DNA of 64,000 nt from the NCBI GenBank assembly GCA_035536915.1, contig DATLNE010000044.1:1-64000 (forward strand). Reading direction: 5' to 3'. Shown piece after piece: positions 9,079 through 54,859 of this stretch (within the stretch, counting starts at the first letter, position 1; the number at the start of each line of letters is the position of its first letter). The DNA is from Acidimicrobiales bacterium. Its GTDB lineage: Bacteria; Actinomycetota; Acidimicrobiia; Acidimicrobiales; JAHWLA01. The translations under genes were made by a program, and so were the position numbers. The notes beneath the pieces were generated by a model, which ran no database searches, was not told where the DNA came from, and worked only from the letters and a program-made list of their open reading frames with translations.

Positions 9079-9098
9079 TGACAGGACCCGTGAGCGCT

Positions 9099-10847: not shown

Positions 10848-10862
10848 GGTCGGACTGTAGGG

Positions 10863-11570: not shown

Positions 11571-11610
11571 TAGGTTCGGCGCAGATTCGCATGAACCACA
11601 GGAGGATTGC

Positions 11611-13349: not shown

Positions 13350-13352
13350 GGG

Positions 13353-14192: not shown

Positions 14193-14279
14193 CGTTCGGC
14201 TCCTCCCCAGTCGTGACGGGCGGAGGCTACCCGTCCACTTGGCCGGACGGCCAAGGCGCGCGCTCTACTGTGCCCGGCA

Positions 14280-14867: not shown

Positions 14868-14878
14868 CTGATGCGGCT

Positions 14879-15394
14879 GTGGCACGTTCGTCGGAGATGC
14901 AACAGGCATTGAGCTTCGAGGGGCCGCTGGTCGAGGTCGTGCGCAGCCGCAAGCGGCGCAAGACCATCTCGGCGCGCGAGGTCGACGGGGTGATCCGGGT
15001 GTCGATCCCGGCCACCATGTCGAAGGCCGACGAAGCCAAGTGGGTCGACGAGATGGTGCGTCGGTTCCAGCGCAAAGCGTCGTCGTCGGAGGTCGACCTG
15101 GCCGAACGGGCCGCCGCCTTGGCCACCCGCTACCGCCTGCCGCAGCCCGAGTCCATCCGCTGGGTGTCGAACCAGGCGTCACGTTGGGGGTCGTGCACGC
15201 CGGTCGACCGGTCGGTGCGCATCTCCGACCGGCTGTCCGAGTTCCCGTTGTGGGTCCTCGACTACGTGTTGGTGCACGAGTTGGCGCACCTGGTCGTGCC
15301 CAGCCACAACGCCGAGTTCAAGGCGTTGGTGAACCGGTACCCGAAGGCGGAGCGGGCGCTGGGCTACTTGATGGCCAAGGGCCTCGAAGGATGA
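14879..15394 (+). CDS. YgjP-like metallopeptidase (DUF45)
   Basis: A protein of about 171 residues of the YgjP/SprT-like family. The zinc motif VLVHELAHLVVPSHNAEF gives HELAH plus a third His. The upstream element RWGSCTPVDRSVRISDRL is family-typical. The start is uncertain: GTG 14879 (MARSSEMQQ) or ATG 14897; neither has a clear ribosome binding site. Its 3' end overlaps the opposing alpha/beta hydrolase gene by 77 bases. Confidence 0.87.
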   Translation: MARSSEMQQALSFEGPLVEVVRSRKRRKTISAREVDGVIRVSIPATMSKADEAKWVDEMVRRFQRKASSSEVDLAERAAALATRYRLPQPESIRWVSNQASRWGSCTPVDRSVRISDRLSEFPLWVLDYVLVHELAHLVVPSHNAEFKALVNRYPKAERALGYLMAKGLEG

Positions 15395-16151
15395 GGTCGG
15401 CCAGCTCGTCGGTGAGCAGGTCGGTGCCGTGGCCTTGGCCGGGCCGCCACCACAGGTCTTTGGGCGGTCGCGCCCGCTCGTAGAGCGCAGTGGCGTGGCT
15501 GCCGTCGAAGTAGTGGTCGTCGGGGTCGTGTACGAACAGGGTGGGTGAGCCGATGTCGGCCACGGCATCGACGGGGTCGACGCGGCCGGTGCAGTCGTCG
15601 GCCACCCGGGTGCGCACGGCCCGGGCCAGGAGGCGGCGACGAGTGGCGGAGTTAACCCACTGCCCTACCCGTTGGGCGCCCGTACCGCCTGCGGCCTCCC
15701 ACCAGGCGGGAGCGCTCACGGCGACGACGCCTGCCACGGGGTTGCGAGCGGCGTGCACGAGCACGGCGGCGGCACCGAGCGACACGCCAACGGTGACGAC
15801 GGTCGGCGTGGGGGCTGCAGCAACGGCGGCGGCCACGTCGAGCGGCTCGTCGCGGCCGAGGGTGCAGCGCCCCTGCGAGCGGCCGTGGCCGCGCAGGTCA
15901 GGGACGACGACATGGGACGCGCGGCTGAGGCGGGTGGCGAAGGCGTGGATGCGGGGGTTGCGCGACCAGTTGGCGAAGCCGTGCACGACCACGAACGTGG
16001 TGGTGGCCTCCGGTGGGCCGGGCAGCAGGTAGGCGGCAAGGGCAACGCCGTCAGCCGTGCGCAGCGTGAGCCGCCTGCTGGTGTAGCGGGGCGAGACGAC
16101 GTAGTTGCGGAGGTAGTTCGTTACGGCGTGGTTGCGTGGGTTTCCCACCAT
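15318..16151 (-). CDS. Alpha/beta hydrolase
   Basis: A 277-residue serine hydrolase-fold protein. The oxyanion segment VVVHGFANWSRNP, the RGHGRSQG turn, the nucleophile elbow VTVGVSLGAAAVLVHAA (Ser in GVSLG), the Asp in FVHDPDDHYFDG and the His in PGQGHGTDLL are visible. Substrate unknown. The start ATG at 16151 overlaps the end of the UbiB-like gene by 31 bases; a later start is possible but would shorten the N-terminal strand region. The Pro/Ser-rich tail runs antisense across the end of the YgjP-like gene. Confidence 0.82.
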   Translation of the reverse strand: MVGNPRNHAVTNYLRNYVVSPRYTSRRLTLRTADGVALAAYLLPGPPEATTTFVVVHGFANWSRNPRIHAFATRLSRASHVVVPDLRGHGRSQGRCTLGRDEPLDVAAAVAAAPTPTVVTVGVSLGAAAVLVHAARNPVAGVVAVSAPAWWEAAGGTGAQRVGQWVNSATRRRLLARAVRTRVADDCTGRVDPVDAVADIGSPTLFVHDPDDHYFDGSHATALYERARPPKDLWWRPGQGHGTDLLTDELADLILRGPWPSSSPAPAPPSGTGSPTP

Positions 16152-39121: not shown

Positions 39122-39529
39122 TCAACCCACGATCTCGCGCACTGTGAGGCGGTCCGCGGTGACCGTGCCGAGGAAGGCGATGGGCTCGGTCGACCACACC
39201 ACGCCTTTGGCTTCGCGCACGGGCACGCGGGACGGGTCGAGGTTCTCCAGCACGAGGTACGGCCCGACACAGTCGGCGGGCGAGCCGGTGCGCAGGCCGG
39301 TGCAGAGACGGGCCGGGAAGCCGCCGCCGGCAAAGACGTAGCCGCGGACGACCGTCTCCTTGGTGGGCCGCCGATAGAAGGCGTCCTGTGCGGTCATCTC
39401 ACCGGGGCGGACCTGCACCGTGCGCTCTCGTGTCGGCGGGCTGAACAACTGCCACGCCCGCACCGCCACCAGTCCGACCAGCACCACGGCGACCACCGCG
39501 AGCACGGCGATGCCGATGCGGTCTTTCAC
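39122..39529 (-). CDS. Membrane-anchored protein of unknown function (operon end)
   Basis: A 135-residue protein with a single N-terminal span (IGIAVLAVVAVVLVGLVAV) and an extracytoplasmic beta-type domain with two Cys (ARLCTGLRTGSPADCVGP) that could form a disulfide. I recognise no family. The start overlaps the upstream lipoprotein stop (ATGA). It is the last gene of the ten-gene moxR-to-39 kb operon. Confidence 0.75.
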   Translation of the reverse strand: MKDRIGIAVLAVVAVVLVGLVAVRAWQLFSPPTRERTVQVRPGEMTAQDAFYRRPTKETVVRGYVFAGGGFPARLCTGLRTGSPADCVGPYLVLENLDPSRVPVREAKGVVWSTEPIAFLGTVTADRLTVREIVG

Positions 39530-40602
39530 CCCGACGGCGCAGAGGTCGTGGTCGTCGACGTCTCGCCGCCGCCTCCGCCGCCGACGGACTCGGCACGGGC
39601 GCGAGCGGCCACTAGCTGCACCCCCGCGGTCAGGGCGTCCGGCGGCAGCTCGATCTTCTCGACCTTGCCGAGGTCGGTGAGCCGCAGCGACATCGACCGA
39701 ACCCGCATGGGCTCTTTGCCTTGGCCGCGGCGCAGGGCATTGATGGCGTCGACGGCCACAGCCGCGGCCTGGCCGGGCGCCACGTCGCCGAAGTTGACGT
39801 CGTAGATGCGCCCCAGCTCGCGGAGGCGCGTCTCCACGTCGATCGCCTCGAACATCTCCACGATGAGCCCGTCTTTCACGTAGACGGACAGACGACGGAA
39901 ATGCCGGAGGTCGGGGACGGCCTCGTTCCCGCCCGCCGCCGCGTCGGCCCGCCGGGGGAGCGGGGGGCGCTGGTAGTCGAACCGCTGTATGCCGGAGCCC
40001 TCCGGCGGGTGCGGGAAGGGGTCCTCGGCCGGCTTGTAGTCGAGCGCCTCGGGGTTGAAGCGCCGGACGAACGGCACCTCGCCGATGGCCCGCTCCGCGT
40101 ACCGCAGCGCCGTCAGCGCGTCGAAGCTGGGGTCGACGCCCAGCCGATCGGTGTCCTTGTCACTGGGCTCGATGGTGGGAGCCCCGCGGCGGTCGACGAT
40201 CCAACGGCCAAGCCCGAGCGCTTCCGAGACAGGCACGGTCACTGTGGCGTTGCCTGTGCCGGTGGGGACGGCAACGGTGTCGGGCCCACCGGCGACCAAT
40301 CGCGAGACGAACTCCTTCTTGAAGACGCGGACGGCGATGGCGTCGTCGTTGACGACCTGCTCGATCACCGGCTCCTGGTTGAGGCTGAGGCGGGCCCGGT
40401 AGCGGAAGTCGTCCTCGACCACACCTTGCACAAGCACGCCTTGGGACCCCGACTGGTCCGTGTACTGGAACCGACGAGCCATCTTCTCGGTGCGTCGAAT
40501 GGCCTCACGAACCTCGGCCGCGGCGTCCTCGCTCTCGCCGCACCCGGGCAGCATGGCCGCCACGGTGGCCAGGCCGGCGACCAGCAACCAGCGGCGCTTC
40601 AC
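39526..40602 (-). CDS. Lipoprotein of unknown function
   Basis: A 358-residue lipoprotein. Signal peptide ends in the lipobox AMLPGCGES (acyl Cys21). The mature protein begins with a helix (EVREAIRRTEKMARRFQYTD), is mainly beta in the middle, and has a Thr/Ser-rich tail (GGGGETSTTTTSAPSG). No known family is recognised. Overlaps of 4 bases with both neighbours show translational coupling. Confidence 0.8.
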   Translation of the reverse strand: MKRRWLLVAGLATVAAMLPGCGESEDAAAEVREAIRRTEKMARRFQYTDQSGSQGVLVQGVVEDDFRYRARLSLNQEPVIEQVVNDDAIAVRVFKKEFVSRLVAGGPDTVAVPTGTGNATVTVPVSEALGLGRWIVDRRGAPTIEPSDKDTDRLGVDPSFDALTALRYAERAIGEVPFVRRFNPEALDYKPAEDPFPHPPEGSGIQRFDYQRPPLPRRADAAAGGNEAVPDLRHFRRLSVYVKDGLIVEMFEAIDVETRLRELGRIYDVNFGDVAPGQAAAVAVDAINALRRGQGKEPMRVRSMSLRLTDLGKVEKIELPPDALTAGVQLVAARARAESVGGGGGGETSTTTTSAPSG

Positions 40603-41105
40603 GGCTTCGTCCCCAACAGCGAGCGGAGCAGGGCGCGCGGTTGTTCAAAGTCGTCGCGCACGGCGAGCACGAACATGAAGCGCTCGTCGAACCACACCGA
40701 GATCTGCTGCTTGGTGCCACGAGTCAAGTGGACGACGAAGTCCCCCACCTTGGCTTCACGGGCCTTGGCGTTGCCGATCTGCTGGATCATCCGGGCTTGG
40801 AAGTCGGCGTCGCCGTAACGAGCGTCGTCACCGAATCGGCTCACCTGCAAGGTCGCTTCGAGGAGGTCGCCGCGCCGCATGCTGAACAGGCCGAGCCCAT
40901 CGAGATAGCTGCGGTCGACGTCGGTGAGGACCTCGGTCATGTCTTCCTTGGCGATGCGAAGGCCCAGCAATTCGGGCGGAAGGAACGAAGGCTCGATCGA
41001 CTCGATCGACTCCCCTGCCTTGCCCGCAGGCTGGGTTTCTCCGCCGCACGCCGACAAGGCCAGCGCGCCCGCCAGCAGTGCCCCGGCGAAACGCCGAGCG
41101 ATCAC
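40599..41105 (-). CDS. Small lipoprotein of unknown function
   Basis: A 168-residue lipoprotein with lipobox LALSACGGE. The mature domain is compact alpha/beta, with GLGLFSMRRGDLLEATLQVS and QQISVWFDERFMFVLAVRDD as notable segments. It has no other Cys. Family unknown. Coupled at both ends by ATGA overlaps to the two neighbouring lipoprotein genes. Confidence 0.8.
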   Translation of the reverse strand: MIARRFAGALLAGALALSACGGETQPAGKAGESIESIEPSFLPPELLGLRIAKEDMTEVLTDVDRSYLDGLGLFSMRRGDLLEATLQVSRFGDDARYGDADFQARMIQQIGNAKAREAKVGDFVVHLTRGTKQQISVWFDERFMFVLAVRDDFEQPRALLRSLLGTKP

Positions 41106-41614
41106 CGATTCACCACTTCCAACGACGCCACCGCATAGGGACGGGTGCCGTCGTGGTAGTTGATCTGACCCGCTGTGGAGACGCGGTATGTGTATGTGCC
41201 ACCGGGCGGAATGGGAGGCGAGGCGAAGCGCCCCCCGTCAGCTTCGACGGACCGGTTCACGGTGTCCTTGTTCACCCAGCGGACAACGGTGCCCACGAAG
41301 ACGCGAGCCGACGGCGGGTCGAACTGGCTGCTGCCCCCTTGGTCGCTGTTGATGGCGATGTCGAAGGTGACGGCCGCCGTGGTGGTGGTCGCACGCGCAG
41401 GCGCGGTCGTGGTGGCGCCGACGCCGGCCTTGCCGCCCGCCACCGTGGTCGGCGGCGCAGTGGTCGCCGTCGGCGCCGTGGTGGTGGTCGCCCCCAAGCG
41501 CTGCTGGGTCTGGTCCTTGAAGTTGAGCAGCGACTCGTCGCCGACCTTGTTCTTGTCGCCACAGGCCGACAACAACAGGGCTGCCGCCGCCAGCACGCCG
41601 ATGATCCGTCTCAT
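41102..41614 (-). CDS. Cupredoxin-fold lipoprotein without copper ligands
   Basis: A 170-residue lipoprotein (LLLSACGDK), a Thr/Ala/Pro-rich linker, and a C-terminal cupredoxin-like domain from about residue 85: PPSARVFVGTVVRWVNKDTV, PPIPPGGTYTYRVSTAGQI, then NYHDGTRPYAVASLEVV. In copper proteins the segments hold His, Cys, His and Met; here the first His position is Arg and the Cys is missing, so copper is not expected. ATG 41614 follows GGGAG. Confidence 0.8.
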   Translation of the reverse strand: MRRIIGVLAAAALLLSACGDKNKVGDESLLNFKDQTQQRLGATTTTAPTATTAPPTTVAGGKAGVGATTTAPARATTTTAAVTFDIAINSDQGGSSQFDPPSARVFVGTVVRWVNKDTVNRSVEADGGRFASPPIPPGGTYTYRVSTAGQINYHDGTRPYAVASLEVVNR

Positions 41615-44600
41615 ACCAAGCTCCCTGAACGTCGCACCGCTTCTTGGCTGGTGCCGAGGTAGGACTCGATGACGGCCTCGTCGTTGAGGACGTCGTCGGG
41701 CAGGCCGCGTCGCAACACGCGGCCCTGGGCCATAGCCACCAACTCGTCGGAGATCGACGAGATGAGCGGCATGTCGTGCTCGATCACCAGGATCGAGCAA
41801 CCGGTCTCGAAGCGCACCCGCCGTAGCAGCGGGCCCAAGCCCTCAGCCTCGGCTTGGGCGATTCCGGTCGAAGGCTCGTCGAGCAGCAGCACTCGGGGCT
41901 CGGCTCCGAGTACGCAGGCCAGGTCGACGACGCGGCGCAGGCCGGTCGACAGTTCTTTCACGAACTTGTCGCGGTATGCGCCCAACTCCAGCAGCTCGAC
42001 CAAGCGGTCGGCGCGCGCTCGCAGGCGCCGTTCCGCCCGCCGGGCATGCGGCATCCCCACGGCGCTCATCAAGGTGTTGCGCACCTCGACCTGCTGCTCC
42101 AAGGCCACGAGGAGCGTCTCGTACACGGTGAGCGAGGGGAAGAGACGGGCGTCCTGAAACCGCCGCACGAGCTTGCGTTTGGCCCGTTCCTCCGGGCCCA
42201 ACGTCGTCACGTCGACCCCTTCGTAGCTGATGGTGCCCCCGTCGGGCGCCTGGTAGCCGCTGATGACGTCGAACAGGGTGGTCTTGCCTGACCCGTTGGG
42301 GCCGATGATGCCGAGCACTTCGCCGTCGCGGAGGTCGAAGGTGACGTCGTCGAGGGCGGTCACGCCGCCGAAGCGCTTCACGATGTCGCGCACTTCCAGA
42401 ACGGGGGCGGCGATGCCCAGCTCGAGGGCGCGGCGGTCGCGCTCGCTGCGCATGGCCGACGCCGGGCCGTCGGTAAGGGCGCCGGTGCCCTTGACGTAGA
42501 CGGCTCGCAGGATGTCGGGGCGCCGCAGCAACTCGGCCGTCTCGCCGAAGAAGCGCACCTCGCCCTTCTCCATGAACACCGCCCGCTGCGCGAGCGTGAG
42601 GGCCACGTTCACCGATTGCTCGACCACCACGATGGTGGTCCCCCGGGCGTGGATGGCCCGCACGATCTCCAACAGCTCCCCCACCACGGCGGGCGAAAGC
42701 CCGAGCGACAACTCGTCGATGAGCAGCAGGCGCGGCCCGGCCAGGAACGCCTGCGCCAACGACACCATCTGCTGCTCGCCGCCGGAGAGATCGCCGGCGA
42801 GCACGTCCGCACGACGAGCCAGCACCGGGAACATCTCGAAGACCTCGGCGACCCTGGCCTTGACGACGTTCTCGTCGTCGGTCATCCAATTGCCGAGCAC
42901 GAGGTTCTCGCGCACGCTCAGGCCGGGGAAGACACCGCGCCCGCCCGGCATGGAGATGACGCCACGGTGGGCGATCTCGTCGGGCGGCATGTGGGTGATG
43001 TCGCGGCCGTCGAACACGATGGCGCCATTGGATGCCTCCTGGGTGCCGCTGATGGCGCGCAGAAGGGTCGACTTGCCCGCCCCGTTGGTGCCGAGGAGGG
43101 CGAGGATCTCGCCCTCCTCCAAGTCGAAGTCGACGTCGAAGAGCACCTGCACGCCGTCGTATTCGACCTCGACGTTGCGGCACACCAGCAACTTGGTGCT
43201 TCCCGCCTCCTTGGCCCGGCGCCACTCGTCGGCCGCCACCGATGCAGCAAGCGCAGCCCGCCGGTCGAGGGCGAAGAACCCACCCGCACTGGCGGCCAGA
43301 GCGGCGCCGATCAAGGCGAAGGGGATGAGGCCGAAGAAGACGGAGTCGTAGCCGTACTCGTAGCGGATGGTGCCGAAGACGGGCAGGGCGATGATGGTGG
43401 TCGGCAGGGCCGCCAAGCCGAAGATCTGCAAGCCCTGGGTGCGCACAGCGGGCGGGATGACCTGGCTGTAGACCGAGTTCGCCGCCGGGCCGCTCAACGA
43501 CAGGCCGAAGGCGTTGATCCCGTAGAACACCACCAGGATCACCAGCGGAGGCTGGAAAGCCGCAGCCAGCAGGCCGAGGGTGGAGATGACTTCGAGCAGG
43601 CCCCGGGCGGTGAGCACCCGGCCCGGGTTGCGACGGATGAAGGTGTCGACCAGCCCGCCACCGATGTAGGCGCCGAAGACGCTGAGCAGCGCGCCAGGGG
43701 CGAGGATGAACCCGCGCTCCAAGGCGCTCAGGCCGTAGTGCTCGGCCAGGAACACCGGGAACAGGATGGTGAAGACACCGTCGTAGACGTTGGTGAACAC
43801 GTCGGCCAGCAGCGTTCGCCGCAGGGTGCGCACGGCCATGACCGAGCGCCATGCCTCGCCGAACGACTGGGGCTCGTCTTCGGTGCGGGCCACGGCGTCG
43901 TCGGCTCCTGCCTCGACGCGCTCCATGTAGCCGCGCACCGGCTCCCGAAGGAACACCAAGGTCAGCACCCCGGTCACGGCGATGCCGAAGCCGATGAAAG
44001 CGAACGTCCATCGCCAGCCCAGCCACACGATGAGGCCGCCGGCGATGAGCGGCGCCAAGACGGTGGCCACTCGCGCCAACCCGCCGACGATGGCGAACAC
44101 CTTGCCTCGTACCGTCGACGGGTAGTAGTCGGCCAACAAGGCGAACCGGGGGACTTGGCTGGCGGTGTCGCTCACGTCGTCGAAGACGCGCGGGGCGCCG
44201 AAGGTGAACGAACTGCGAGCGCGCGCGGTGAGCATGGCAGCCAGGCCGGAGAAGATGCAGCCGATGGCCACCAGCGGCACTCGGGGATGGCGGTCGGCCC
44301 AGTAGCCGATGAACAGGCCCGCGATGATCGAGATCGTCCCGACCGTGGCGATGATGCCGATGATGTTGCCGTACTCGATGTTGAGGTCGCGGGTGATCTC
44401 GAACTGGGCCAGGTAAAAGGTCCTGGTGTCGAACGTCTGGAAGAACGTCATAAGCCCGATGATCAAGACGGGCGTCAAGCCGTAGGGCGTGCGGCGCAAC
44501 TCCTTCCAGTTGCCCGCCTCACGCAGGGCACGGCGCAGCCCACCGCCCGAGCCTGGAGGTGCGACCGGCGCGCCGAGCGCCGATGCCCCACCCGACAGTC

Positions 44601-44790
44601 CGGCGGGAGCCACCTCGGCGGGCAGTGCCACCTCGTCGAGCTCGGGCTCGGCGTCGGCCGCCAAGCGCCCGTCGTCGAGCTGTGTCGTCGTGGGCGCGTC
44701 GGCCGGACGTCGGCGCCGACCCGTCGACCCGTTCCCGTTCCCGTTCCCGTTCCCGTTCCCGTTCCCGTTCCCGTTCCCGTTGGCTGCCAT
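41611..44790 (-). CDS. MFS permease fused to LivF- and LivG-type ABC ATPases
   Basis: A 1059-residue fusion not seen in standard transporters. Residues 4-21 are Asn-Gly repeats, then a Pro/Ala-rich linker to about 85. Residues about 90-500 are a twelve-span MFS domain (LIIGLMTFFQTFDTRTFYLA, YWADRHPRVPLVAIG). From about 530 comes a LivF-type ATPase (Walker A LLGTNGAGKSTLL, signature LSGGEQQMVSLAQAF, Walker B LLLIDELSLGLSP) and from about 795 a LivG-type one (GPNGSGKTTLFDVISGY, LSTGLRRVVDLA, LLLDEPSTG). The permease gene LivHM is directly upstream (TGATG overlap). The two ATPases should drive LivHM; why an MFS domain is attached is unknown. Confidence 0.9.
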   Translation of the reverse strand: MAANGNGNGNGNGNGNGNGNGSTGRRRRPADAPTTTQLDDGRLAADAEPELDEVALPAEVAPAGLSGGASALGAPVAPPGSGGGLRRALREAGNWKELRRTPYGLTPVLIIGLMTFFQTFDTRTFYLAQFEITRDLNIEYGNIIGIIATVGTISIIAGLFIGYWADRHPRVPLVAIGCIFSGLAAMLTARARSSFTFGAPRVFDDVSDTASQVPRFALLADYYPSTVRGKVFAIVGGLARVATVLAPLIAGGLIVWLGWRWTFAFIGFGIAVTGVLTLVFLREPVRGYMERVEAGADDAVARTEDEPQSFGEAWRSVMAVRTLRRTLLADVFTNVYDGVFTILFPVFLAEHYGLSALERGFILAPGALLSVFGAYIGGGLVDTFIRRNPGRVLTARGLLEVISTLGLLAAAFQPPLVILVVFYGINAFGLSLSGPAANSVYSQVIPPAVRTQGLQIFGLAALPTTIIALPVFGTIRYEYGYDSVFFGLIPFALIGAALAASAGGFFALDRRAALAASVAADEWRRAKEAGSTKLLVCRNVEVEYDGVQVLFDVDFDLEEGEILALLGTNGAGKSTLLRAISGTQEASNGAIVFDGRDITHMPPDEIAHRGVISMPGGRGVFPGLSVRENLVLGNWMTDDENVVKARVAEVFEMFPVLARRADVLAGDLSGGEQQMVSLAQAFLAGPRLLLIDELSLGLSPAVVGELLEIVRAIHARGTTIVVVEQSVNVALTLAQRAVFMEKGEVRFFGETAELLRRPDILRAVYVKGTGALTDGPASAMRSERDRRALELGIAAPVLEVRDIVKRFGGVTALDDVTFDLRDGEVLGIIGPNGSGKTTLFDVISGYQAPDGGTISYEGVDVTTLGPEERAKRKLVRRFQDARLFPSLTVYETLLVALEQQVEVRNTLMSAVGMPHARRAERRLRARADRLVELLELGAYRDKFVKELSTGLRRVVDLACVLGAEPRVLLLDEPSTGIAQAEAEGLGPLLRRVRFETGCSILVIEHDMPLISSISDELVAMAQGRVLRRGLPDDVLNDEAVIESYLGTSQEAVRRSGSLV
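44731..44780. repeat. GTTCCC hexamer tandem repeat
   Basis: Eight and one third copies of GTTCCC in perfect array, in frame at the start of the MFS-LivF-LivG fusion. On the coding strand they encode Asn-Gly pairs. Slipped-strand changes would alter the linker by whole dipeptides without breaking the frame. Confidence 0.9.
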
Positions 44791-47090
44791 CAGCTTCCCT
44801 CCGCCGCAGCACCGATGGCCGCCGCCTCGGCGGTCGACTTGGCGCCCTGCACCTTGTCGACGAGCCGAGCACCCCGCCCTTCGTACAGGTCGGACGCCAA
44901 GGCGAACCGCTGCTCCGGCGCCAACGCCGCCAGGCCGCCGCCTTCCAGGGGATCGGCCAGCACGACGAGGCGCTTCTCCAGGGCCTCGGGGTCGTAGTCG
45001 GCGAACAGGCTGGGCACCACGATCTGGCGGCGCTGGGCCACGATGCGCAGCATCGAGTCGCGCACCTGCGTGAACAAGGACACCAACCCTCCCGGCGCCG
45101 CGTAGAGCACGATCAAGGGCAGCAGCGCCAGGATCGACAAGAAGATCTGGTTGTTCTCGAAGATGCGGTCGAGCACCTCGGCATAGGTGGCGCCGATCAC
45201 CGCCCCGCCAATGGAGCCGATGCCGCCGATGACGGCGACCACGAAGAGCTCGACGCTGGTGGCGGGAAAGAAGAAGTCGGAGCTCAGCCCCCGCTGGTGG
45301 TGGATGATGACCGCGCCGGCGAAGCCGGCCAACGACCCGGATACCGCGAAGGCGAGCAACTTGGTACGCACGGCGTTGACACCGAACGACTGGAGGTTCG
45401 CTTCGTTCTCGCGAGAGGCGATGAGGATGCGGCCCACGCGGCTGCGGCGCATGTTCGCCACCGCGACCATGGCGATCACCAAGCACGCCACCGAGAGGAA
45501 GTACATGCTGCGTTCGTCGTCGAAGTCGACGAACAACAACGACGGGCGCTCGACGTCGCGCGGGAGCAGCTCGCCGAAGTAACGAGGGCTCGACACCACC
45601 GCATAGACAGCGGCGGCGAAGGCGAAGGTGGTAATCCCGAGGAACAAGCCGCGGATGCGCAGGGCGGGCAGCCCGATGAGCACGGCGAAGGCTCCTGCCA
45701 CCGCGGCTCCGAGCGGTGCTGCGAACCAGAACGGCACGCCCGCCTGGGAGAAGCTCCCGCCCGCGATGGCACCGACGGCCACGAAGCCGAACTGGCCCAG
45801 GCTGACCTGGCCCGCCCAGCCGGTGAGCACCACCAGCGAGAGCAGGACGATGCCGTTGAGGGCGATCAACCCGCCCGTATGGCTCGCTCCTGCGGACACG
45901 GTGAAGGGGAACACGAGAACGGCAAGGAGGCCGACGCCGATGAACCCCCAACGGGTGTAGCGCACGACGCCGATGTCGGCGAGCTCGCGCGGGATGCCGC
46001 GAGGCTCCCTGCTCGCCTCCCAGGAGGCCTCCACACCGGACTCGCTGCGACCGCGGCGGCGACGCTGCACGAACAAGGCGCCGCACACGAGCACGAACAG
46101 GCCGATGCTGACAAAGTCGCCCCCGTCACGGATCGACCACGCCGTGGCTTCCGACAGCACGGCGATGCCCACCGCAGCGGCGACGGTGATCGGGAAGCTG
46201 CGCAAACGGCCCACCACGGCAGCGGCCAGGGCAGGCAGCAGGACAGCAGGTGCGACGCCTTGGGCCGCCGCGGGCGTGGTCAGCAGGCCGGTGGTCGTCA
46301 CGCTGGCCGCGGAGAGGACGCCGGCGATGACCCACACCAGGGTGGAGAGCATGCCCACGTTGATGCCGAGCAAGGACGCTCGCTCGGAGTTCTCGGCCAT
46401 GGCCCGCAGGGCGATGCCTGCCTTGGTGAAGCGAAAGAAGACGAACAGGCCGACCAGGGCGACGACGGCGACCTCGATGGCGAAGAGGTGCACGAACCCG
46501 AAGGGCTGGGAGAAGCCGCCGATGTGGAACCTGAACCCCCGCAGCGGGAGGTCGGCGAGGAGGGCAACACTGTTGAACGTCTCTTCCACCGAGCGTGACT
46601 CCAGCGGCGGGAAGAACGGGAGACGGCGCACGAACTCGGCGCTGGAGCCGAGGAAGGCGGCTGCCGCGATGGTCACCACGGTGAGCACCAGCCGGGGGGC
46701 ATTGAAGAAGCGACGGCCGAAGGCGAGGTCGAACAGCAGGCCGACGATCCCGCCGAGCAGCAACCCGAGGGCGAAAGCGATGGGGAACGGGACCGAGCTG
46801 TAGCGAATGAGTTCGAAGACGAGCACCGCCCCCGCGGCACCGACTGCGGTCTGGGCGAAGTTGATGATGCGCAACGTGCGGTAGACGAGGATGATCCCCG
46901 CCGCCGTCAACGAACTGACCATGCCGAGGACCACGCCTCGGAAGAGGATCCCCACGGGCGTGCCCCGCCCTGCGCTGGCTGCCCCCGGCATCAGGAGCTG
47001 GGTGTACACGAGTACGGCGACGAAGGCGGCGGCGCCGATGGCGGCGTTGCGCCGCGTACTGCCCGGCGGGAGCAAGCTGTCGAGGTTCAC
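44790..47090 (-). CDS. LivH-LivM fused branched-chain-type ABC permease
   Basis: A 766-residue fusion of two permease subunits normally made as separate proteins. LivH-like residues about 40-330 (TLRIINFAQTAVGAAGA, GLLTTPAAAQGVAPAVLLPA), linker with ESGVEASWEASREPRG, LivM-like residues about 370-680 (GWAGQVSLGQFGFVAVGAIA, FVVAVIGGIGSIGGAVIGA). A soluble C-terminal tail of about 80 residues follows (ALEKRLVVLADPLEGGGL). Its gene couples to the MFS-ABC fusion downstream and to a lipoprotein gene upstream (ATGA). The substrate is probably an amino acid or small hydrophobic compound, by family only. Confidence 0.9.
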   Translation of the reverse strand: MNLDSLLPPGSTRRNAAIGAAAFVAVLVYTQLLMPGAASAGRGTPVGILFRGVVLGMVSSLTAAGIILVYRTLRIINFAQTAVGAAGAVLVFELIRYSSVPFPIAFALGLLLGGIVGLLFDLAFGRRFFNAPRLVLTVVTIAAAAFLGSSAEFVRRLPFFPPLESRSVEETFNSVALLADLPLRGFRFHIGGFSQPFGFVHLFAIEVAVVALVGLFVFFRFTKAGIALRAMAENSERASLLGINVGMLSTLVWVIAGVLSAASVTTTGLLTTPAAAQGVAPAVLLPALAAAVVGRLRSFPITVAAAVGIAVLSEATAWSIRDGGDFVSIGLFVLVCGALFVQRRRRGRSESGVEASWEASREPRGIPRELADIGVVRYTRWGFIGVGLLAVLVFPFTVSAGASHTGGLIALNGIVLLSLVVLTGWAGQVSLGQFGFVAVGAIAGGSFSQAGVPFWFAAPLGAAVAGAFAVLIGLPALRIRGLFLGITTFAFAAAVYAVVSSPRYFGELLPRDVERPSLLFVDFDDERSMYFLSVACLVIAMVAVANMRRSRVGRILIASRENEANLQSFGVNAVRTKLLAFAVSGSLAGFAGAVIIHHQRGLSSDFFFPATSVELFVVAVIGGIGSIGGAVIGATYAEVLDRIFENNQIFLSILALLPLIVLYAAPGGLVSLFTQVRDSMLRIVAQRRQIVVPSLFADYDPEALEKRLVVLADPLEGGGLAALAPEQRFALASDLYEGRGARLVDKVQGAKSTAEAAAIGAAAEGS

Positions 47091-48157
47091 GTTTGGTTCG
47101 CTAACGGAGTCGGGACGAGCTGGCCCAGCTCGAAGCGGAGGTCGTGGGTACCGAACGCGTCGCTGAACTTGTACTGCTCCTCGATGATCATGGCGCCGAG
47201 CTGCGTGGCCACGAGGATGTTGTAGGCGGTGGTGAACCCGGGCTGCTGCATCTTGCCCTCGACGCGATAGCCCTCGACGATGTCGCCGCAGGCGTCAATG
47301 CGTTCCTTGGCCTTGATGGTGCCGTCGAACCGAGCGGCGCCTTGGCGGGTCATGTCGGAACGAAGGCCCACGGTGGACACCTCCGACGTCGATGTGAACT
47401 GCTCACCCGGCGATATGGGAAGCGGGAGGATCAACAGCGCCGGGACGAACCTTCGCTCCTCCCTCCCGCCGTCGGGGGTGTTGTAGACCTCCCCGACGAT
47501 GGCCAAGCCACGTTCCGGGTCGCCGGCGCGCACGCGGGGATCGCCTGTCACCGGCTTCACCTCGCGTTGCGCCTCGGCATTCGTCTTCACTTGGTATGTC
47601 GTGCGCAAAGTGCCTTTGCCATAGGGCTGCACCGTGTCGTAGCGGTACACGAAGTTGCGCTTGTCCGGGTAGTCGGTGGCCGGGTTCGTCGATTCCGATG
47701 TCAAGGTGACGTTCTCGATGACGCGCACCTCGAAGCCCGTGATCCGCACCTCTTGTCCTTGCAGTGCCGCCAGCTTTGTCGTGCCGCCTCGCTGCCACCG
47801 GTAGCGCCCGGGCGCAGGCTGTTCGGACACCTGCTCGGTGCTGGCTTCTTTGGGAAAGGCGTTGATGCTGGCCTCCGGGCACGGCTCCGAGCGCTGCACC
47901 TCTTGGCGGAAGCTGCGCGGTCCGCCTGGTTGCACCGTGTCCTCGGCCACGAGCGCGATCTCTTCGTCGGGGGCGAGCTGGTCCGGCGCGGCACCGGGCG
48001 CCTGGGTGCCTGCCTTGTTCTTGACCCCGAAGACGACGTCGGCGTCGAGGCCTTTGACGTTGACGCCAGGCTCGCCCTGCGACCCACAGGCCGCGACCAT
48101 CGCCAAAGCCATCAGGGCTGCCGTCCTACGCGGGAGCCGATGCAGGTGCCAGCGCAC
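47087..48157 (-). CDS. Lipoprotein of unknown function
   Basis: A 356-residue lipoprotein. GTG 48157 follows GGGAGG with a 6-base spacer and begins a signal peptide ending in MVAACGSQG. The mature part is largely beta, with two or three Cys (SEPCPEAS, DACGDIVEGY). No family recognised. It overlaps the transglutaminase-like gene by 32 bases and the LivHM gene by 4, so it probably acts in the same envelope complex. Confidence 0.8.
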   Translation of the reverse strand: MRWHLHRLPRRTAALMALAMVAACGSQGEPGVNVKGLDADVVFGVKNKAGTQAPGAAPDQLAPDEEIALVAEDTVQPGGPRSFRQEVQRSEPCPEASINAFPKEASTEQVSEQPAPGRYRWQRGGTTKLAALQGQEVRITGFEVRVIENVTLTSESTNPATDYPDKRNFVYRYDTVQPYGKGTLRTTYQVKTNAEAQREVKPVTGDPRVRAGDPERGLAIVGEVYNTPDGGREERRFVPALLILPLPISPGEQFTSTSEVSTVGLRSDMTRQGAARFDGTIKAKERIDACGDIVEGYRVEGKMQQPGFTTAYNILVATQLGAMIIEEQYKFSDAFGTHDLRFELGQLVPTPLANQT

Positions 48158-50441
48158 GGCGTTCCTCCCTTCCTTGGCGGACGTCGGTCTCAGGTGCATA
48201 CGGGCGCCGGACGGAGATGCGCGAGACGGCAGCCACGGCCCGCGCCGTGCCGGGCTGGCTCTGCGACAGCCGGCGGCGCAAGGCGCGCGACAGCTCTTCG
48301 GCCGCTTCGGCCAACTCCGGGGTGAGCTCGTGTTGCAGGTCGCCCCACAGGCCGCGGGTGACGAGCCACGCCAGCTCGGTGTGTTCGTCGTCGGCCACGA
48401 ACCGGTCGAGGAACATCAGCGGCGTGTCGCTGCGGTGGGCGTAGCCGAAGTCGGCGGCATGGTCGCGCCACTCCGCGTACGCCAAGGCGATACGCGCTCG
48501 CGGGCCCGCAGCCCGCGCCGCCGAGCGCCGCCGCGACCGGCGGTACGCCTTTTGCAACGCCGGGAAGGTGGCGTACGCTAAGGCCAGCAAAAGCAGCATG
48601 GGGACCACGAGAAGCAAGGTCGAGCGCACCCGGTCTGCGAGTTGGCTTTCGCCCTCGACGACCACCGGCATGAACAGGCGCACCGAGACCTCGTCGCTCG
48701 GGAGGATCGATGGGTCGAACTGCTGCTGCGATTCGGTGCCGACCGTGGGCCGGGCGGTGCGCGGTGTGCCGATCACCGGCAGCCACTTGTAGCCCGGAAA
48801 GTAGACCTCCACGAAGTTGGCGCCGTGCTTGGGCCGGATCTGGAGGGTGCCTTCCTTGCCCTCCACCGGATCGCCGCCGTCGAAGCCGTAGCCGATGCGC
48901 GAGGGGATGCCCGCCCAGCGACCGAGCATGGCCTGGGTGGCCACGATCTCGAAGGGCGTGCCCTCCTTGGCACCGGTGAGCATGTCCTGCACCCGCTCGG
49001 GGGTGATCTCCTTGGGCACGCCCGGCCCGGCGGCAGTGACGTTGTCGAGCACGTAACGGCGGAGAAAGTCGAATGTTTCCCACTTCGAACCTTGCGGCGC
49101 CTGGTTGAGGAGGTCGACGACCACGGGAGGCGGGTCGGGGATGTCCAGGAACTGCGCCATCTCGCCTTCGTCGGGAACCGGTGCCTGTGCCTGCAGCGCA
49201 TCGACGGTGGGCAGGGCGGCGGCGGTCACCGTGTACGACAGGCCCGCCTGCACTTGGCCCTCGGCAACGCGGATGTTGCCGTTGCGGCTGTCGTAGGCCA
49301 GGCGAGGACCCTCGGCGATGATGCCGACGCTGTTGGGCAGGGTGGGAACGACGGCGCCGCCGAGGCCCGCCACCGTGAAGCGCGCCCGCACGCCGGGGGC
49401 GAGGTCGGGATCCACGACGCCGCTCTCGGGCACGTCTTCCAAGCGGTTGTCGGCAAACGGCGGGAGGCGCCAGTCTTTGCCGTCGTACACGTCGAGGTTG
49501 CCGATCCGCCACGGTCCGGTGATGGTCGACTCGACGGTGAACAGGGCACGGTCCTCGACCTCGGAGAGGGGGACGGTGCGCGGCCGCTGGGGCTCTTCGG
49601 TCGGGTCGATGTAGGGGTCGGGGAAGAGGAAGTCGGTCTGCGAGAGCACCACGAGGGCCACGGTGATGAAAGCGATGAGCGGGATGGCCCGCAGGGCGCG
49701 GCGCACCTCGTAGGCCCGTGACGGGCGCTCGTCGCCCTCCCCTGCGGTCTGGGCGCTCGACAACACGGCGAGGGCGATGGCGAACAGGACCAAGGCGACG
49801 ATGCCGCTCACGACCTGCTGGTCGTCGGGCACGCTGATGGCGGGAATGGCGGCCAACGGCAACGGCAGCATCAGGGCCAGGGCGGGCCGTCGCAGCACCA
49901 GGGCGATCCAGGCGGCGGCGAAGCCGACGATGCCCATCAGCCACCCGATGATGGCCTGCCACCCCGTGCGCAACCCGATGGGAGGCCGGAGCACGTCGGC
50001 CGTCTTGGCCGCCTCGGAGACGAGGGCCCGCACGCGCGTGAGGTTCTCGATGCCGCCGGGCACCACCATCAACAGGCCGATGGCGAACAAGCCGCCGACG
50101 ATGGCGAGATTGGCCACGACCGGCCTGCGCTGGCGACGAACGAGCACCGCCAGGCCGATGCCGAGCAGTCCGCCTGCGGCGGCGTAGAGGCGAGCGCCGA
50201 CCCCGGTGAACACGGCACCGACCATGACGGCCAAGGCGATGGTGGGGCAGGCGACGGCGAAGGCCAGGCGGCCGACGGGACCAGGCGGGTCCTCGATCTC
50301 GGGGAGCGCCCCCCCGTCGTCGCCCGCGTCGGCGGCCGCATCGAGGTCGGCCTCGACCCGGCCCTCCTCGTCGGCCAGGTTCTCGAGCACCTCGCCTTCG
50401 AGACGGACGAGTTCCGACTGCTCGGGCAGCGTGGTCGACAT
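48126..50441 (-). CDS. Transglutaminase-like (TgpA/DUF3488 type) membrane protein without catalytic residues
   Basis: A 771-residue protein: acidic N-terminus, about six spans between residues 60 and 290, an extracytoplasmic domain, one further span (about 600-620) and a cytoplasmic DUF4129-type tail (YAEWRDHAADFGYAHRSDTP). The transglutaminase core is recognisable by AGIPSRIGYGF and FVEVYFPGYKWLPV, but the catalytic Cys is Phe or Pro, the His position is Ala and the Asp after LPV is Ile. So the usual triad is gone and it cannot be a standard transglutaminase or protease. TGATG overlap with DUF58. Confidence 0.85.
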   Translation of the reverse strand: MSTTLPEQSELVRLEGEVLENLADEEGRVEADLDAAADAGDDGGALPEIEDPPGPVGRLAFAVACPTIALAVMVGAVFTGVGARLYAAAGGLLGIGLAVLVRRQRRPVVANLAIVGGLFAIGLLMVVPGGIENLTRVRALVSEAAKTADVLRPPIGLRTGWQAIIGWLMGIVGFAAAWIALVLRRPALALMLPLPLAAIPAISVPDDQQVVSGIVALVLFAIALAVLSSAQTAGEGDERPSRAYEVRRALRAIPLIAFITVALVVLSQTDFLFPDPYIDPTEEPQRPRTVPLSEVEDRALFTVESTITGPWRIGNLDVYDGKDWRLPPFADNRLEDVPESGVVDPDLAPGVRARFTVAGLGGAVVPTLPNSVGIIAEGPRLAYDSRNGNIRVAEGQVQAGLSYTVTAAALPTVDALQAQAPVPDEGEMAQFLDIPDPPPVVVDLLNQAPQGSKWETFDFLRRYVLDNVTAAGPGVPKEITPERVQDMLTGAKEGTPFEIVATQAMLGRWAGIPSRIGYGFDGGDPVEGKEGTLQIRPKHGANFVEVYFPGYKWLPVIGTPRTARPTVGTESQQQFDPSILPSDEVSVRLFMPVVVEGESQLADRVRSTLLLVVPMLLLLALAYATFPALQKAYRRSRRRSAARAAGPRARIALAYAEWRDHAADFGYAHRSDTPLMFLDRFVADDEHTELAWLVTRGLWGDLQHELTPELAEAAEELSRALRRRLSQSQPGTARAVAAVSRISVRRPYAPETDVRQGREERRALAPASAPA

Positions 50442-51784
50442 CAGCGGCTCCCGGCACCGGCGCCGAGAGCGCCGTACAGGGCGGTGGCCAGGTCTTGGCC
50501 GGGGTGGACGCCGGCCACCGCGCAACCCAGGCCTGCGGCAGTGCCGATGGTCTCGGCGTCGGCTTCGTCCCACACCAAGGCGACGACGAGCACGGACACG
50601 CCGCGGTTCACCAACATGCGCAACTGCGTGGCCTCGGTCGCATGCAGCCGCGGCGTGATGATCACGTGGTGGGCGTCGCGTGCCGGCCGGATGAGCAGGC
50701 GCATCAGCGCGTTGGAGAGCGAGTCGCGCGAGTGCTCGAGGCGGGCCAAGCCGTCGAGCAGCATCATCTGGCTGGCGGGGCCGCGCAGGGGCCGGGTGAG
50801 CGGCCCACCGCTGGTCTCGCAGCGCACTTCGTAGCCCTCGCGCAGGTGGCCGACGCCGATGGACGCGGCCACGCGGATGCCAGCTTCGAACGACTCGGAG
50901 TACCCCTCGCCGTCGCGGCTGTGGGCGGCCCGATCGGTGTTGAGGACCATCATGATCTTGTCGGTGATGCCCTGCTCGGCCTCGCGCACCATGATCGTGC
51001 CGGTGCGGGCGGACGCCCGCCACACGATGCGGCGAAGGTCGTCACCGGGCGTGTACTCGCGCATCCCGTAGAACTCCAGCCCCGACGGCCACGGCTTCGA
51101 CACGGGTGGCCGGACGGGCGGGTCCTCGAACTGGCGGGTGAGGGGGCGGTCGTTGACCAGCTCGACACGGGGGTGCACGAGCAGCTCGAAGGGCTCGGCC
51201 ACCACGGTCTCGCGCTGCGAAAGCCCGAGGGGGTCACCGGCGATGGCCACCAACGGGCCTACCTGGTAGACGCCGCGGCGACCGCAGCGCAGGCCGTAGC
51301 GGTGCTCGACCGCGGCCCCCGACGAGAGCTTGGCGATGGGCACCCGCACCGGGTTGCCGAGGCGCTCGGGCACGCGCTCTTCGAGGATGAAGGTGCTGAC
51401 GGTGCGAGTGGCAGTGAGCCGCACGCGCACGTCGAGGCGGTCGCCTTCCTGTGCCCGCGGGAACAGGCCCTCGCGCTCGCCGGTGAGGCGCAGGCGTCGC
51501 GGCGCGATGGCGTAGCTCACGATGACGAGAAGGGCGGCGCCGTAGGCGAAGAGGTACATGGCGGTGCCTGCCACCACCCGGGCGGCGATCCAGAGCCCGA
51601 CCGCAGCCAAGAGCGCCATCTGCCCGGCGCGGGTGATGCCGAGCCGGCGTTGCAGGTCGTCGAGGCGGCGCTTGACGGCACGCGGCGACCAGTTCTCGGC
51701 CACCGCATCGAGACGCGTCCGCCAGGCCGACGACGACCCAGGGGCCAACGCCTTCGGTGACCTCCGCCGCGTGGGACCCGCCAT
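50441..51784 (-). CDS. DUF58 domain protein
   Basis: A 447-residue protein with two spans near residues 55-90 and a DUF58 domain. The signature LEFYGMREYTPGDDLRR and WRASARTGTIMVREAEQ is clear; a von Willebrand A-like fold follows. DUF58 proteins usually accompany MoxR ATPases and transglutaminase-like membrane proteins, which is exactly the arrangement here. Start ATG 51784 is 13 bases after the moxR stop. Confidence 0.9.
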   Translation of the reverse strand: MAGPTRRRSPKALAPGSSSAWRTRLDAVAENWSPRAVKRRLDDLQRRLGITRAGQMALLAAVGLWIAARVVAGTAMYLFAYGAALLVIVSYAIAPRRLRLTGEREGLFPRAQEGDRLDVRVRLTATRTVSTFILEERVPERLGNPVRVPIAKLSSGAAVEHRYGLRCGRRGVYQVGPLVAIAGDPLGLSQRETVVAEPFELLVHPRVELVNDRPLTRQFEDPPVRPPVSKPWPSGLEFYGMREYTPGDDLRRIVWRASARTGTIMVREAEQGITDKIMMVLNTDRAAHSRDGEGYSESFEAGIRVAASIGVGHLREGYEVRCETSGGPLTRPLRGPASQMMLLDGLARLEHSRDSLSNALMRLLIRPARDAHHVIITPRLHATEATQLRMLVNRGVSVLVVALVWDEADAETIGTAAGLGCAVAGVHPGQDLATALYGALGAGAGSR

Positions 51785-51797
51785 TCCCGCTCTGCCC

Positions 51798-52802
51798 TCA
51801 GCGCCCGTTACGGGCGGAGAGCGGCGGCTTTACTGCTCCGGTGATCCGCTCCAAGGCGGCCTCCACGGTGTCGCCGCGGAGCATGGCATCAGGATGCAGG
51901 ACGAGACGGTGTGCCATCACCGGGCGCAGGACGGTGCGCACGTCGTCGGGGTAGACGTCGTCGCGGCCGTCGGATGCGGCCAGGACGCGCGCCGCCCGTA
52001 GAAGGGAGATCGAGGCTCGGGGGCTGCCGCCCATGGCGACGGCCGGGTCGGTGCGCGACGCCTGCACGAGGTCGACGATGTAGTAGCCCACCTCGGGCGC
52101 CACCGACAGCGTGGCGGCGTAGTTGATCATCGCCTGCACGTCGACGGTGCTGACGACGGAGCCGAGGTCCTCGATCGACAGCTGCACCGAGTTGTCGAAC
52201 ATGACCTCGAACTCGTGCTCGCGGGCCATGTAGCCCATCGACAACTTGAACAGGAACCGGTCGAGCTGGGCCTCAGGAAGCGGGAAGGTACCGGCCTGCT
52301 CGACGGGGTTCTGGGTGGCGAGCACGAGGAACGGCCGGGGCAGGTCGTAGGTGGTCCCGTCGGCGGACACGCGGCGTTCGGCCATGGCCTCGAGGAGGGC
52401 CGACTGCGTCTTGGGGGTGGCCCGGTTGATCTCGTCGGCCAGCAGCACGTTGGTGAAGATGGGGCCGGGCCGGAACTCGAACTGGCCCCGCTTCTGGTCG
52501 AGGATCGACGAGCCGGTGATGTCGCCGGGGAGCATGTCGGGGGTGCACTGCACGCGGGTGGTGAGCGCCTCCATCGACTGCCCCAGCGCTCGGGCCAACA
52601 TCGACTTGCCGGTGCCGGGCACGTCCTCGAACAGGATGTGGCCCTCGCAGAGGATGGCCACCAGGGCGAGGCGCACGACGTCGCTCTTGCCCTTGATGAC
52701 CGTCTCGACGTTCTCGGCGATCAGGTCGAACTGCTTCTTGAAGCGCTCGGTCGTCAGTTGGTTCCTTGAGGACCGGACCGGACGGGTGGTGGCAACAGCC
52801 AT
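51798..52802 (-). CDS. moxR: MoxR-family AAA+ ATPase
   Basis: A 334-residue AAA+ ATPase. Walker A LFEDVPGTGKSMLARAL, Walker B VLLADEINRATPKTQSALLE, sensor 1 LATQNPVEQAGTFPLPEAQ and the arginine finger in QLDRFLFK are complete. MoxR proteins act as chaperones that fit cofactors or assemble partners. ATG 52802 with GGGAGAAG is chosen over an in-frame upstream extension. It heads the ten-gene operon, with its promoter in the 228-base divergent gap. Confidence 0.93.
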   Translation of the reverse strand: MAVATTRPVRSSRNQLTTERFKKQFDLIAENVETVIKGKSDVVRLALVAILCEGHILFEDVPGTGKSMLARALGQSMEALTTRVQCTPDMLPGDITGSSILDQKRGQFEFRPGPIFTNVLLADEINRATPKTQSALLEAMAERRVSADGTTYDLPRPFLVLATQNPVEQAGTFPLPEAQLDRFLFKLSMGYMAREHEFEVMFDNSVQLSIEDLGSVVSTVDVQAMINYAATLSVAPEVGYYIVDLVQASRTDPAVAMGGSPRASISLLRAARVLAASDGRDDVYPDDVRTVLRPVMAHRLVLHPDAMLRGDTVEAALERITGAVKPPLSARNGR

Positions 52803-53029: not shown

Positions 53030-54859
53030 ATGGCGGCGGTAGCTGAAACGACCCGAGGACGGCCCACCGAGTGGGCCCGCAAGTATCCGCCGCTGCTGGC
53101 AGTCATCGCCGCGGCACTCATCGTCCTCGGGGTGCTCCCCTCGTCGCTCAACCTCCCGCAGGCCAACCCCAGCCAGACGTTGGAGTTCGCACCGGTCCCG
53201 CCTGACGACGACACTCCGCCGCCCGCCATGTCGGGGAACCTGTCGTCGCTCGGCCTCGCCGGCAGTTCCAGCCTCGAATCGCTGGCCGCCACCACCACGA
53301 CCATGCTGGATAACCTGATCACCCCCGGCCGTAAGAACCGCAGCACGGCGACCGGTATCAAGAACTGCGTCGGCGACCCGCCCAAGCAGACCGAGGACCC
53401 GTTGGCGCCGCCCTGTGTGTCGAACTTCGAGGGCGACAACTTCGGCGCCACCTACCAGGGCGTCACCGGCGAAGAGATCCGCATCCTCGTCTACTTCGAG
53501 GGCTTTACATCGTACACCCAGTGCAGCAAAGGAGCCGAGAGCACCCCGGACGGCAAGCTCTTCGACCTGTGGGAGGAGCCCGACCCCGGGGGCGAGCACT
53601 GCATGGTGCGGGTACTGCGCGGCTGGCAGAAGTATTTCAACACCCGCTACCAGACCTACAAGCGCGACGTGCACTTCTTCGCCTTCTTCGCCACCGGGGG
53701 GCTGCACCCGACCGCTGCGTCGCGCAAGGCCGACGCCGCCGACAACTATTCGAAGGTCAAGCCGTTTGCCGTCCTCAGCTATGGGGTGGAGAACAACGAC
53801 GCCTACCTGGAGTCGATGGCTCGCAAGGGCGTGTTGAACTTCGGCGCCTTTGTGGGCCGTCCGGCCGCCTTCTTCGCCAAGTACCCGAAGCTGGTCTGGG
53901 GCTTCTACCCGTCGCTTGAGCAGCAGGCCCGCATGTTCACGACCTACGTCTGCAAGAAGGCGGTCGACCGCCCGGTGAGCTTCAGCGGCAACCCGGAGAA
54001 CAACGACGACGGTCGGATCTACGGCATGTGGTCCAGCAAAGACAAGGACCGGCCGGACCTCCAGCTCTTCGCCGACCTGGTCAAGCAGCAGCTCGAGGCG
54101 TGCGGCGTGACATTCAAGGCGCACCTGTTCTTCCCCACCTCGCAATACGTGCAGGACAACAGCACGACACCCCAGTACGCCGCCGACGCCGCTACCCAGT
54201 TCCGAGACGCCGGGGTCACCACCCTGATCTGGCCGGGCGGGTTGGAGACCAACCTCAGCAAGTCCGCGGGCGAATGGCGGCCCGAGATCGTGGCCGCCGG
54301 CGACCTCTTCCTCGACGGCAACAGCGAAGGCCATTACCAGCAGCAAGACTTCTGGCGGAACGCCTGGATCGTGTCGAACACCACCTTCACCCCGCTGTTC
54401 GAGCAGACCCTGTGCGCCAAGGCGCTCGCCGAGGCGCAGCCCACCGCGCCGAGAGACGACGTGCGCTACAGCTGTGACCTCGGGCTCTACAACGACCTGC
54501 GCCAGCTCTTCACCGGCATCCAGGTGGCGGGCCCCCGCCTCGGGCCGACCTCCGTCGACAAGGGCTACCGGGCCATCCCTAAGGGGCCGAGCGGCAACCG
54601 TGAGGTGCCCGCCTGCTTCTACGAGCCGGGCGACTACACGTGCACCAAGGACGCCGTAGCCCAATGGTGGGACCCGACCGGGGACTCCCCCAACAACGAT
54701 CAAGCGGGCTGCTGGCGCATGACCGAGAACGGCAAGCGCTACCTGAGCGGCACGTGGCCCGACGGCAACGTCACAAGCCAGCGGTCTGGCAGCGACCCCT
54801 GCAACGGCTTCAACGGTGGTGGCCTGACCAACCCCAACCCCCCGAGCCCCGGCGCATGA
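53030..54859 (+). CDS. Membrane-anchored type-1 periplasmic-binding-like protein
   Basis: A 609-residue solute-binding-like protein, presumed partner of the LivHM/MFS-ABC transporter. A cytoplasmic N-tail is followed by one span (LLAVIAAALIVLGVLPSSLN) without lipobox, a disordered Pro/Ser/Thr linker, and a type-1 periplasmic-binding-protein domain from about residue 140 (GATYQGVTGEEIRILVYFEG). KPFAVLSYGVENNDAYLES and KYPKLVWGFYPSLEQQARMF are in the ligand-binding half. Several Cys may form disulfides. ATG 53030 follows GGAGG. It overlaps the downstream gene by a possible ATGA. Confidence 0.87.
   Translation: MAAVAETTRGRPTEWARKYPPLLAVIAAALIVLGVLPSSLNLPQANPSQTLEFAPVPPDDDTPPPAMSGNLSSLGLAGSSSLESLAATTTTMLDNLITPGRKNRSTATGIKNCVGDPPKQTEDPLAPPCVSNFEGDNFGATYQGVTGEEIRILVYFEGFTSYTQCSKGAESTPDGKLFDLWEEPDPGGEHCMVRVLRGWQKYFNTRYQTYKRDVHFFAFFATGGLHPTAASRKADAADNYSKVKPFAVLSYGVENNDAYLESMARKGVLNFGAFVGRPAAFFAKYPKLVWGFYPSLEQQARMFTTYVCKKAVDRPVSFSGNPENNDDGRIYGMWSSKDKDRPDLQLFADLVKQQLEACGVTFKAHLFFPTSQYVQDNSTTPQYAADAATQFRDAGVTTLIWPGGLETNLSKSAGEWRPEIVAAGDLFLDGNSEGHYQQQDFWRNAWIVSNTTFTPLFEQTLCAKALAEAQPTAPRDDVRYSCDLGLYNDLRQLFTGIQVAGPRLGPTSVDKGYRAIPKGPSGNREVPACFYEPGDYTCTKDAVAQWWDPTGDSPNNDQAGCWRMTENGKRYLSGTWPDGNVTSQRSGSDPCNGFNGGGLTNPNPPSPGA

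Follow-up and report, generated by a model that had tools for sequence, protein, structure and literature searches.

The two great superfamilies of transporters, the major facilitator superfamily (MFS) and the ATP-binding cassette (ABC) proteins, are as a rule regarded as distinct energy regimes. The present analysis concerns a gene in a stretch of 64,000 nt from an Acidimicrobiales bacterium (contig DATLNE010000044.1 of assembly GCA_035536915.1, positions 1 to 64,000; hereafter the window) that encodes an MFS protein and two ABC ATPases, of the LivF and LivG types, in one chain. The locus resembles the LIV/HAAT importers, such as E. coli LivKHMGF, a class that we take to be 3.A.1.4 of the Transporter Classification (TC), in having ATPases of the LivF and LivG types, a pair of BPD_transp_2 permeases, and a binding protein of type I by fold, but differs from them in that LivH is fused to LivM and LivF to LivG, an MFS protein is added to LivF, and the binding protein is membrane-anchored and very divergent. 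The MFS part is comparable to the Spinster proteins (HnSpns, 6e8j, and human SPNS1/2), with which it shares the Asp in transmembrane helix 1 (TM1), the Asp and Arg of motif A, the Arg and Asp of TM4, and the Arg-Gly of loop 6-7, whereas its fusion to ABC ATPases, the replacement of the proton-switch Glu in most members, and a sequence similarity that is only distant set it apart.

MFS fusions to other partners are already known. In some bacteria, LplT, an MFS lysophospholipid flippase, and the acyltransferase Aas are encoded by one open reading frame (PMC11416262), and a family of sensor kinase-MFS fusions, TC 2.A.1.34, has been listed (PMC3924187). LplT-Aas is similar to the present protein in joining an MFS carrier to a soluble partner of the same pathway, but that partner is an acyltransferase, whereas here the partner is the ATPase pair of another transporter; the sensor kinase-MFS proteins likewise carry a nucleotide-using domain, but have neither an ABC ATPase nor a partner ABC permease. 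No description of an MFS-ABC ATPase fusion was found in the open-access papers searched, in which the fusion of an MFS protein to importer ATPases appears to be undescribed; the domain combination may already be listed in sequence databases.

The original prediction, made from the sequence alone, described a continuous frame of 1059 codons encoding a twelve-span MFS domain followed by two nucleotide-binding domains of the branched-chain amino acid type, and in these respects it was borne out. The gene, on the minus strand, runs uninterrupted from an ATG at 44790 to a stop codon ending at 41611 and is colinear with its homologues. Pfam searches identified MFS_1 at residues 112-459 (6e-37) and two ABC_tran domains, while in NCBIfam the first ATPase was best matched by LivF/UrtE-like families and the second by LivG/UrtD-like ones. 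An AlphaFold2 model built on a family alignment of 20 rows, with a mean predicted local distance difference test score (pLDDT) of 79 and a predicted template modelling score (pTM) of 0.63, contained a disordered tail (residues 1-83), 12 long helices (106-501), a further helix (503-528) by which TM12 is extended to the first strand of LivF (533), and two ABC folds; the even number of spans in the MFS domain places both LivF and LivG in the cytosol. When this model was compared with PDB by Foldseek, no MFS-ABC chain was present among the matches listed, which included tandem ATPases (DppD, OppD) and ABC exporters. An internal translation start yielding separate LivF-LivG was considered and rejected, since neither junction has a ribosome-binding site comparable to the GGAGG preceding the true start. 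At nt 44731-44790, some ten N-terminal Asn-Gly pairs are encoded by a six-base tandem repeat, which is missing from the aligned relatives.

Many further genomes of the order have colinear full-length homologues with 41-66% identity, nearly all without inner stops, which excludes a sequencing error or a chimera; the nearest 59 genomes contained many of them, several per genome. Architectures were counted on 61 distinct MFS rows read in fetched DNA, comprising 42 MFS-LivF-LivG, 14 MFS-LivF, and 5 MFS only (3 of them distant outgroups). Fusion to LivF or LivF-LivG was seen in 56/61 of these MFS-family proteins; the two are mostly fused in the relatives and not always separate and unlinked, the arrangement that the original prediction had named as speaking against it. 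With a profile of the MFS domain at strict thresholds, the family was detected in 94/198 genomes of the order and 21/396 genomes of the phylum, these figures covering Actinomycetota, with up to nine matches per genome within the order; the named matches with the fusion belonged to Acidimicrobiales and Actinomycetota. MFS-LivF chains are paired with a LivH-LivM-LivG chain, as in the cultured streptomycete relative Embleya sp. NBC_00888 (L216; MFS-LivF, LivHM-LivG, and a Peripla_BP_6 protein), whereas MFS-LivF-LivG is paired with LivH-LivM; either way there is one MFS per importer. Many genes are concerned, whose annotation probably names just an MFS or an ABC protein. The frequency of the fusion, the LivH-LivM fusion, the Spinster-like character of the MFS domain, and its degenerate paralogues had all gone unmentioned in the original prediction.

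The best solved relative of the MFS profile was HnSpns (6e8j, 6.7e-31), followed by human SPNS1 and DgoT. The residues forming the cytosolic charge relay and gate of HnSpns, and its proton-switch Glu, were taken from PMC9440201 and located in the 42 triple fusions (equivalents in the window are given in brackets). The TM1 Asp, D41 (D121), is kept in 40/42; motif A (D-R-x-x-R) is present in loop 2-3 of the window as D166, R167 and R170, and D87 (D166) and R91 (R170) are each found in 42/42; in TM4, R122 (R201) occurs in 41/42 and D142 (D221) in 42/42, and in loop 6-7, R233 (R286) and G234 (G287) are both found in 42/42. At the position of R42 the window has T, with R one residue later, and R occurs in 28/42. 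The proton-switch site in TM4, E129 (D208), is acidic in 7/42 and R/K in 25/42; owing to this replacement the domain is termed Spinster-like and not filed as a member of Spns. In the 14 MFS-LivF proteins the equivalents of D41, R42, D87, R122, and R233 have mostly been lost, while standalone MFS relatives retain the gate residues together with R325, R359, R450, and D509; these last four were dropped as candidate contacts with the ATPases because the standalone proteins also keep them.

The linker between MFS and LivF is 16 or 17 residues long in 51/56 proteins and is modelled as a helix, in contrast to the LivF-LivG linker, which varies from 18 to 93 residues. A linker of near-fixed length, modelled as a helix, argues that the MFS domain would be docked on LivF at a fixed place and angle rather than loosely tethered. 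The LivF and LivG halves share 38% and 36% identity, respectively, with the E. coli proteins. The original prediction held that both ATPase sites are intact and may work; Walker A and Walker B are indeed intact in both, but in the LivG half the signature motif reads LSTG in place of LSGG, and in the LivF half the switch-His is replaced by Gln. The same asymmetry is seen in E. coli LivG (AYGD) and LivF (VEQ), so the statement is no stronger here than for ordinary LivF-LivG. At nt 42700-42715, the LivF half reads DELSLG, compared with DEPSLG in E. coli LivF, a Pro to Leu change after Walker B; DELSLG is shared by 51/56 family proteins.

Phylogenetic trees were quick ones without bootstrap, and the number of events drawn from them is approximate. 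In the LivF tree, the family members formed one group against ordinary LivF proteins, mostly of the same genome (Shimodaira-Hasegawa-like approximate likelihood ratio test, SH-aLRT, 99). LivF-LivG chains without MFS were nested among the fused ones, and forcing the MFS-bearing rows into one clade was rejected by the approximately unbiased test (p-AU 1.2e-4). These MFS-less paralogues, either LivHM plus LivFG or four-domain chains, have the same permease, ATPases, and binding protein in a similar gene order but lack MFS; the nesting of several of them in the fused clade points to loss. In the MFS tree, standalone MFS proteins occupied at least 4 positions next to different fused relatives (L017, L020, L023, and within a large fused clade). 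MFS and LivF distances were correlated (r=0.62; 0/1000 permutations as high), which suggests co-inheritance, and the mean patristic distance was 2.38 for MFS versus 1.25 for LivF, indicating that MFS evolves about twice as fast. These trees would be read most simply as a fusion that arose early and from which one half or the other was lost several times; such repeated losses show that neither half strictly needs the other. An old and widespread fusion with a junction of fixed length and free-living halves would provide a natural test of mechanical or allosteric coupling between primary and secondary transport.

Several loci illustrate these variants. Single chains of LivH-LivM-LivF-LivG without MFS, 1009-1245 aa, were seen at L027, L028, L030, L034, and L223:12361-16098. 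At L223, a standalone MFS gene (7959-9347) is divergent to a binding protein gene and the gene for the 1245-aa four-domain chain (together 10745-16098), so that the parts of the fusion lie there as neighbours. In two genomes of one genus, the MFS of L224:8364-9881 stops at a TAG in the linker, while L022:1264-4446 runs on into LivF-LivG; on the tree the L224 MFS was about 97% like that of the fused L022, and the stretch downstream of it consists of Ns; the difference may reflect a recent split.

The partners of an importer are present in the locus. LivHM, which the original prediction had supposed to be the partner, was found in the adjoining gene as a fused permease matching BPD_transp_2 over two stretches (5.9e-50, Pfam), and in those triple-fusion loci whose flank was read far enough it lies directly upstream of the fusion. 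The product of nt 53030-54859 had no match in Pfam or NCBIfam, and its model (pLDDT 72) resembles binding proteins of the LIV class (3eaf, 5.5e-12, and many binders of leucine or aromatic acids); binding proteins beside other family members match Peripla_BP_6 with values up to 8.5e-16. With LivHM, a binding protein, LivF, and LivG in one locus, the LIV-type importer is complete. This, together with the carrier-type gate residues kept by the MFS domain, partly supports the interpretation in the original prediction, of which the coupling of import to MFS transport and the regulatory role of MFS stay hypothetical.

We consider the locus to encode a LIV importer with a Spinster-like MFS protein docked on LivF, in which the MFS part is a still-functional carrier of the same pathway, a tentative reading to which we give a probability of roughly 45%. 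Here the binding protein, LivH-LivM, and LivF-LivG make up a complete ABC importer of the LIV/HAAT type, one LivHM chain and one MFS-LivF-LivG chain giving one importer and one carrier. LivF and LivG would drive LivHM in the ordinary way; the MFS domain of the triple fusions would still transport a substrate, a co-substrate, or a product of the importer's pathway; and the fusion would enforce 1:1 co-assembly and side-by-side placement rather than drive MFS by ATP. The MFS part of the sister lineage, MFS-LivF, has lost most of the gate network and may now be a scaffold or an allosteric part. The carrier reading is favored by the complete importer, the gate residues kept in the triple fusions, the occurrence of each half without the other, the linker of near-fixed length, and the correlated MFS and LivF distances. 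As to the substrate, the modelled fold of the binding protein, similar to leucine and aromatic-acid binders, and the likeness of MFS to lipid and drug carriers may serve as leads only. Several observations weigh against this reading: the window and several relatives have either a shifted or a replaced R42; the proton-switch site is acidic in few members and basic in most, from which proton coupling of the MFS part may differ or be absent; the conserved linker would equally fit mechanical coupling; and the losses show evolutionary dispensability, not independence within the fused protein.

Nearly as likely, though itself doubtful, is that the MFS part no longer transports and acts as a membrane anchor, an assembly platform, or a ligand sensor setting the activity of LivHM and LivF-LivG via the helical linker. 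The persistence of fusion in the 14 MFS-LivF paralogues that have mostly lost the gate residues, for which this explanation may already hold, the basic residue at the E129 site in most triple fusions, the nearly fixed linker length, and the faster evolution of MFS are in its favor; it is opposed by the almost invariant charge network of the gate in the triple fusions and by the survival of importers without MFS, and both this network and the standalone descendants, which keep the gate without any ATPase, speak more for a carrier than for a passive scaffold. It is improbable that the ATPases drive both membrane parts, with LivF motion passed through a rigid helix to give an ATP-driven MFS, or an exchanger importing through LivHM and exporting through MFS in one cycle. 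The near-constant helical junction of 16-17 aa, topologically like the last transmembrane helix entering the ATPase in ABC exporters, and the proton-switch site, which in most members has lost its acid, would fit such a machine, but MFS-less importers and ATPase-less MFS proteins exist, each keeping its own motifs, and the Foldseek matches listed from PDB included no solved structure that combines MFS and ABC. To our knowledge, no ATP-driven MFS protein has been reported. A hybrid primary/secondary transporter, in which two translocation routes share a single ATPase engine and import by LivHM is stoichiometrically coupled to exchange or export by MFS, is unlikely to the same degree. That a frameshift, an assembly chimera, or a database artefact joins separate genes, a concern raised in the original prediction, is rejected with near certainty because direct reading of independent genomes showed 56 fused relatives that are colinear with a conserved junction, and the good ribosome-binding site of the fusion start has no comparable counterpart at the junctions.

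Table 1 Features of the fusion gene, its importer partners, and neighbouring genes in the window
Feature	Positions	Strand	Basis or remark
MFS-LivF-LivG fusion gene, 1059 aa	41611..44790	-	open frame, Pfam, AlphaFold2
GGAGG ribosome-binding site, seven bases upstream of the fusion ATG	44798..44802	-	sequence
Disordered N-terminal tail with Asn-Gly repeat, residues 1-83	44542..44790	-	pLDDT about 30
Spinster-like MFS domain, 12 transmembrane helices, residues 106-501	43288..44475	-	Pfam, profile match, AlphaFold2
Linker helix from TM12 to LivF, residues 503-528, length near-constant in the family	43207..43284	-	AlphaFold2, family alignment
LivF-type ATPase, residues 533-769	42484..43194	-	Walker A GTNGAGKS at 567-574, LSGGE, DELSLG, VEQ
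LivG-type ATPase, residues 797-1048	41647..42402	-	Walker A GPNGSGKT, LSTG signature, IEH
LivH-LivM fused permease, 766 aa, two BPD_transp_2 domains	44790..47090	-	overlaps fusion start by 1 nt
Membrane-anchored type-I substrate-binding protein, 609 aa, divergent	53030..54859	+	fold
Probable MoxR-type AAA ATPase, first cluster gene	51798..52802	-	conserved neighbour
DUF58 protein, same operon	50441..51784	-	conserved neighbour
TgpA-type transglutaminase membrane protein, same operon	48126..50441	-	conserved neighbour
Lipoprotein lip370, conserved neighbour, without family	47087..48112	-	
Cupredoxin-like lipoprotein, 4-nt overlap with fusion stop	41102..41614	-	fold by inspection only
Lipoprotein lip168, conserved neighbour	40599..41105	-	
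Lipoprotein lip358, conserved neighbour	39526..40602	-	

The fusion gene is one of ten minus-strand genes, from 52802 to 39122, which overlap by 1-4 nt or are separated by short gaps and encode, in order, a probable MoxR, a DUF58 protein, a TgpA transglutaminase, a lipoprotein, LivH-LivM, MFS-LivF-LivG, a cupredoxin-like lipoprotein, two lipoproteins, and a small membrane protein. The first product is presumably MoxR, a name given from a reading of the sequence and from what is known of the family. The same gene order was observed in further families of the order as well as in other classes of the phylum (L047, L049-L052, L217-L219). At nt 39122-52802, the probable MoxR-DUF58-TgpA module thus shares an operon with the LIV importer and several lipoproteins, an association conserved to other classes (L217-L219). 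A lipid carrier of the LppX/LprG type was tested for lip358 and found no support, and lip370 had only a chance-level match, to sterol carrier protein 2 (E 0.12).

Many of these importers are followed by a gene for a secreted protein whose mature part begins with a Trp-rich segment (L038:7196-8203, L039:11455-12552, L185:10116-11246, and L057:11756-12631); there was no Pfam match in the two examples tested. The genome containing the window has many LIV systems, and its ordinary ones are also fused, as LivH-LivM-LivG with a separate LivF (L171, L173, L175, and L177).

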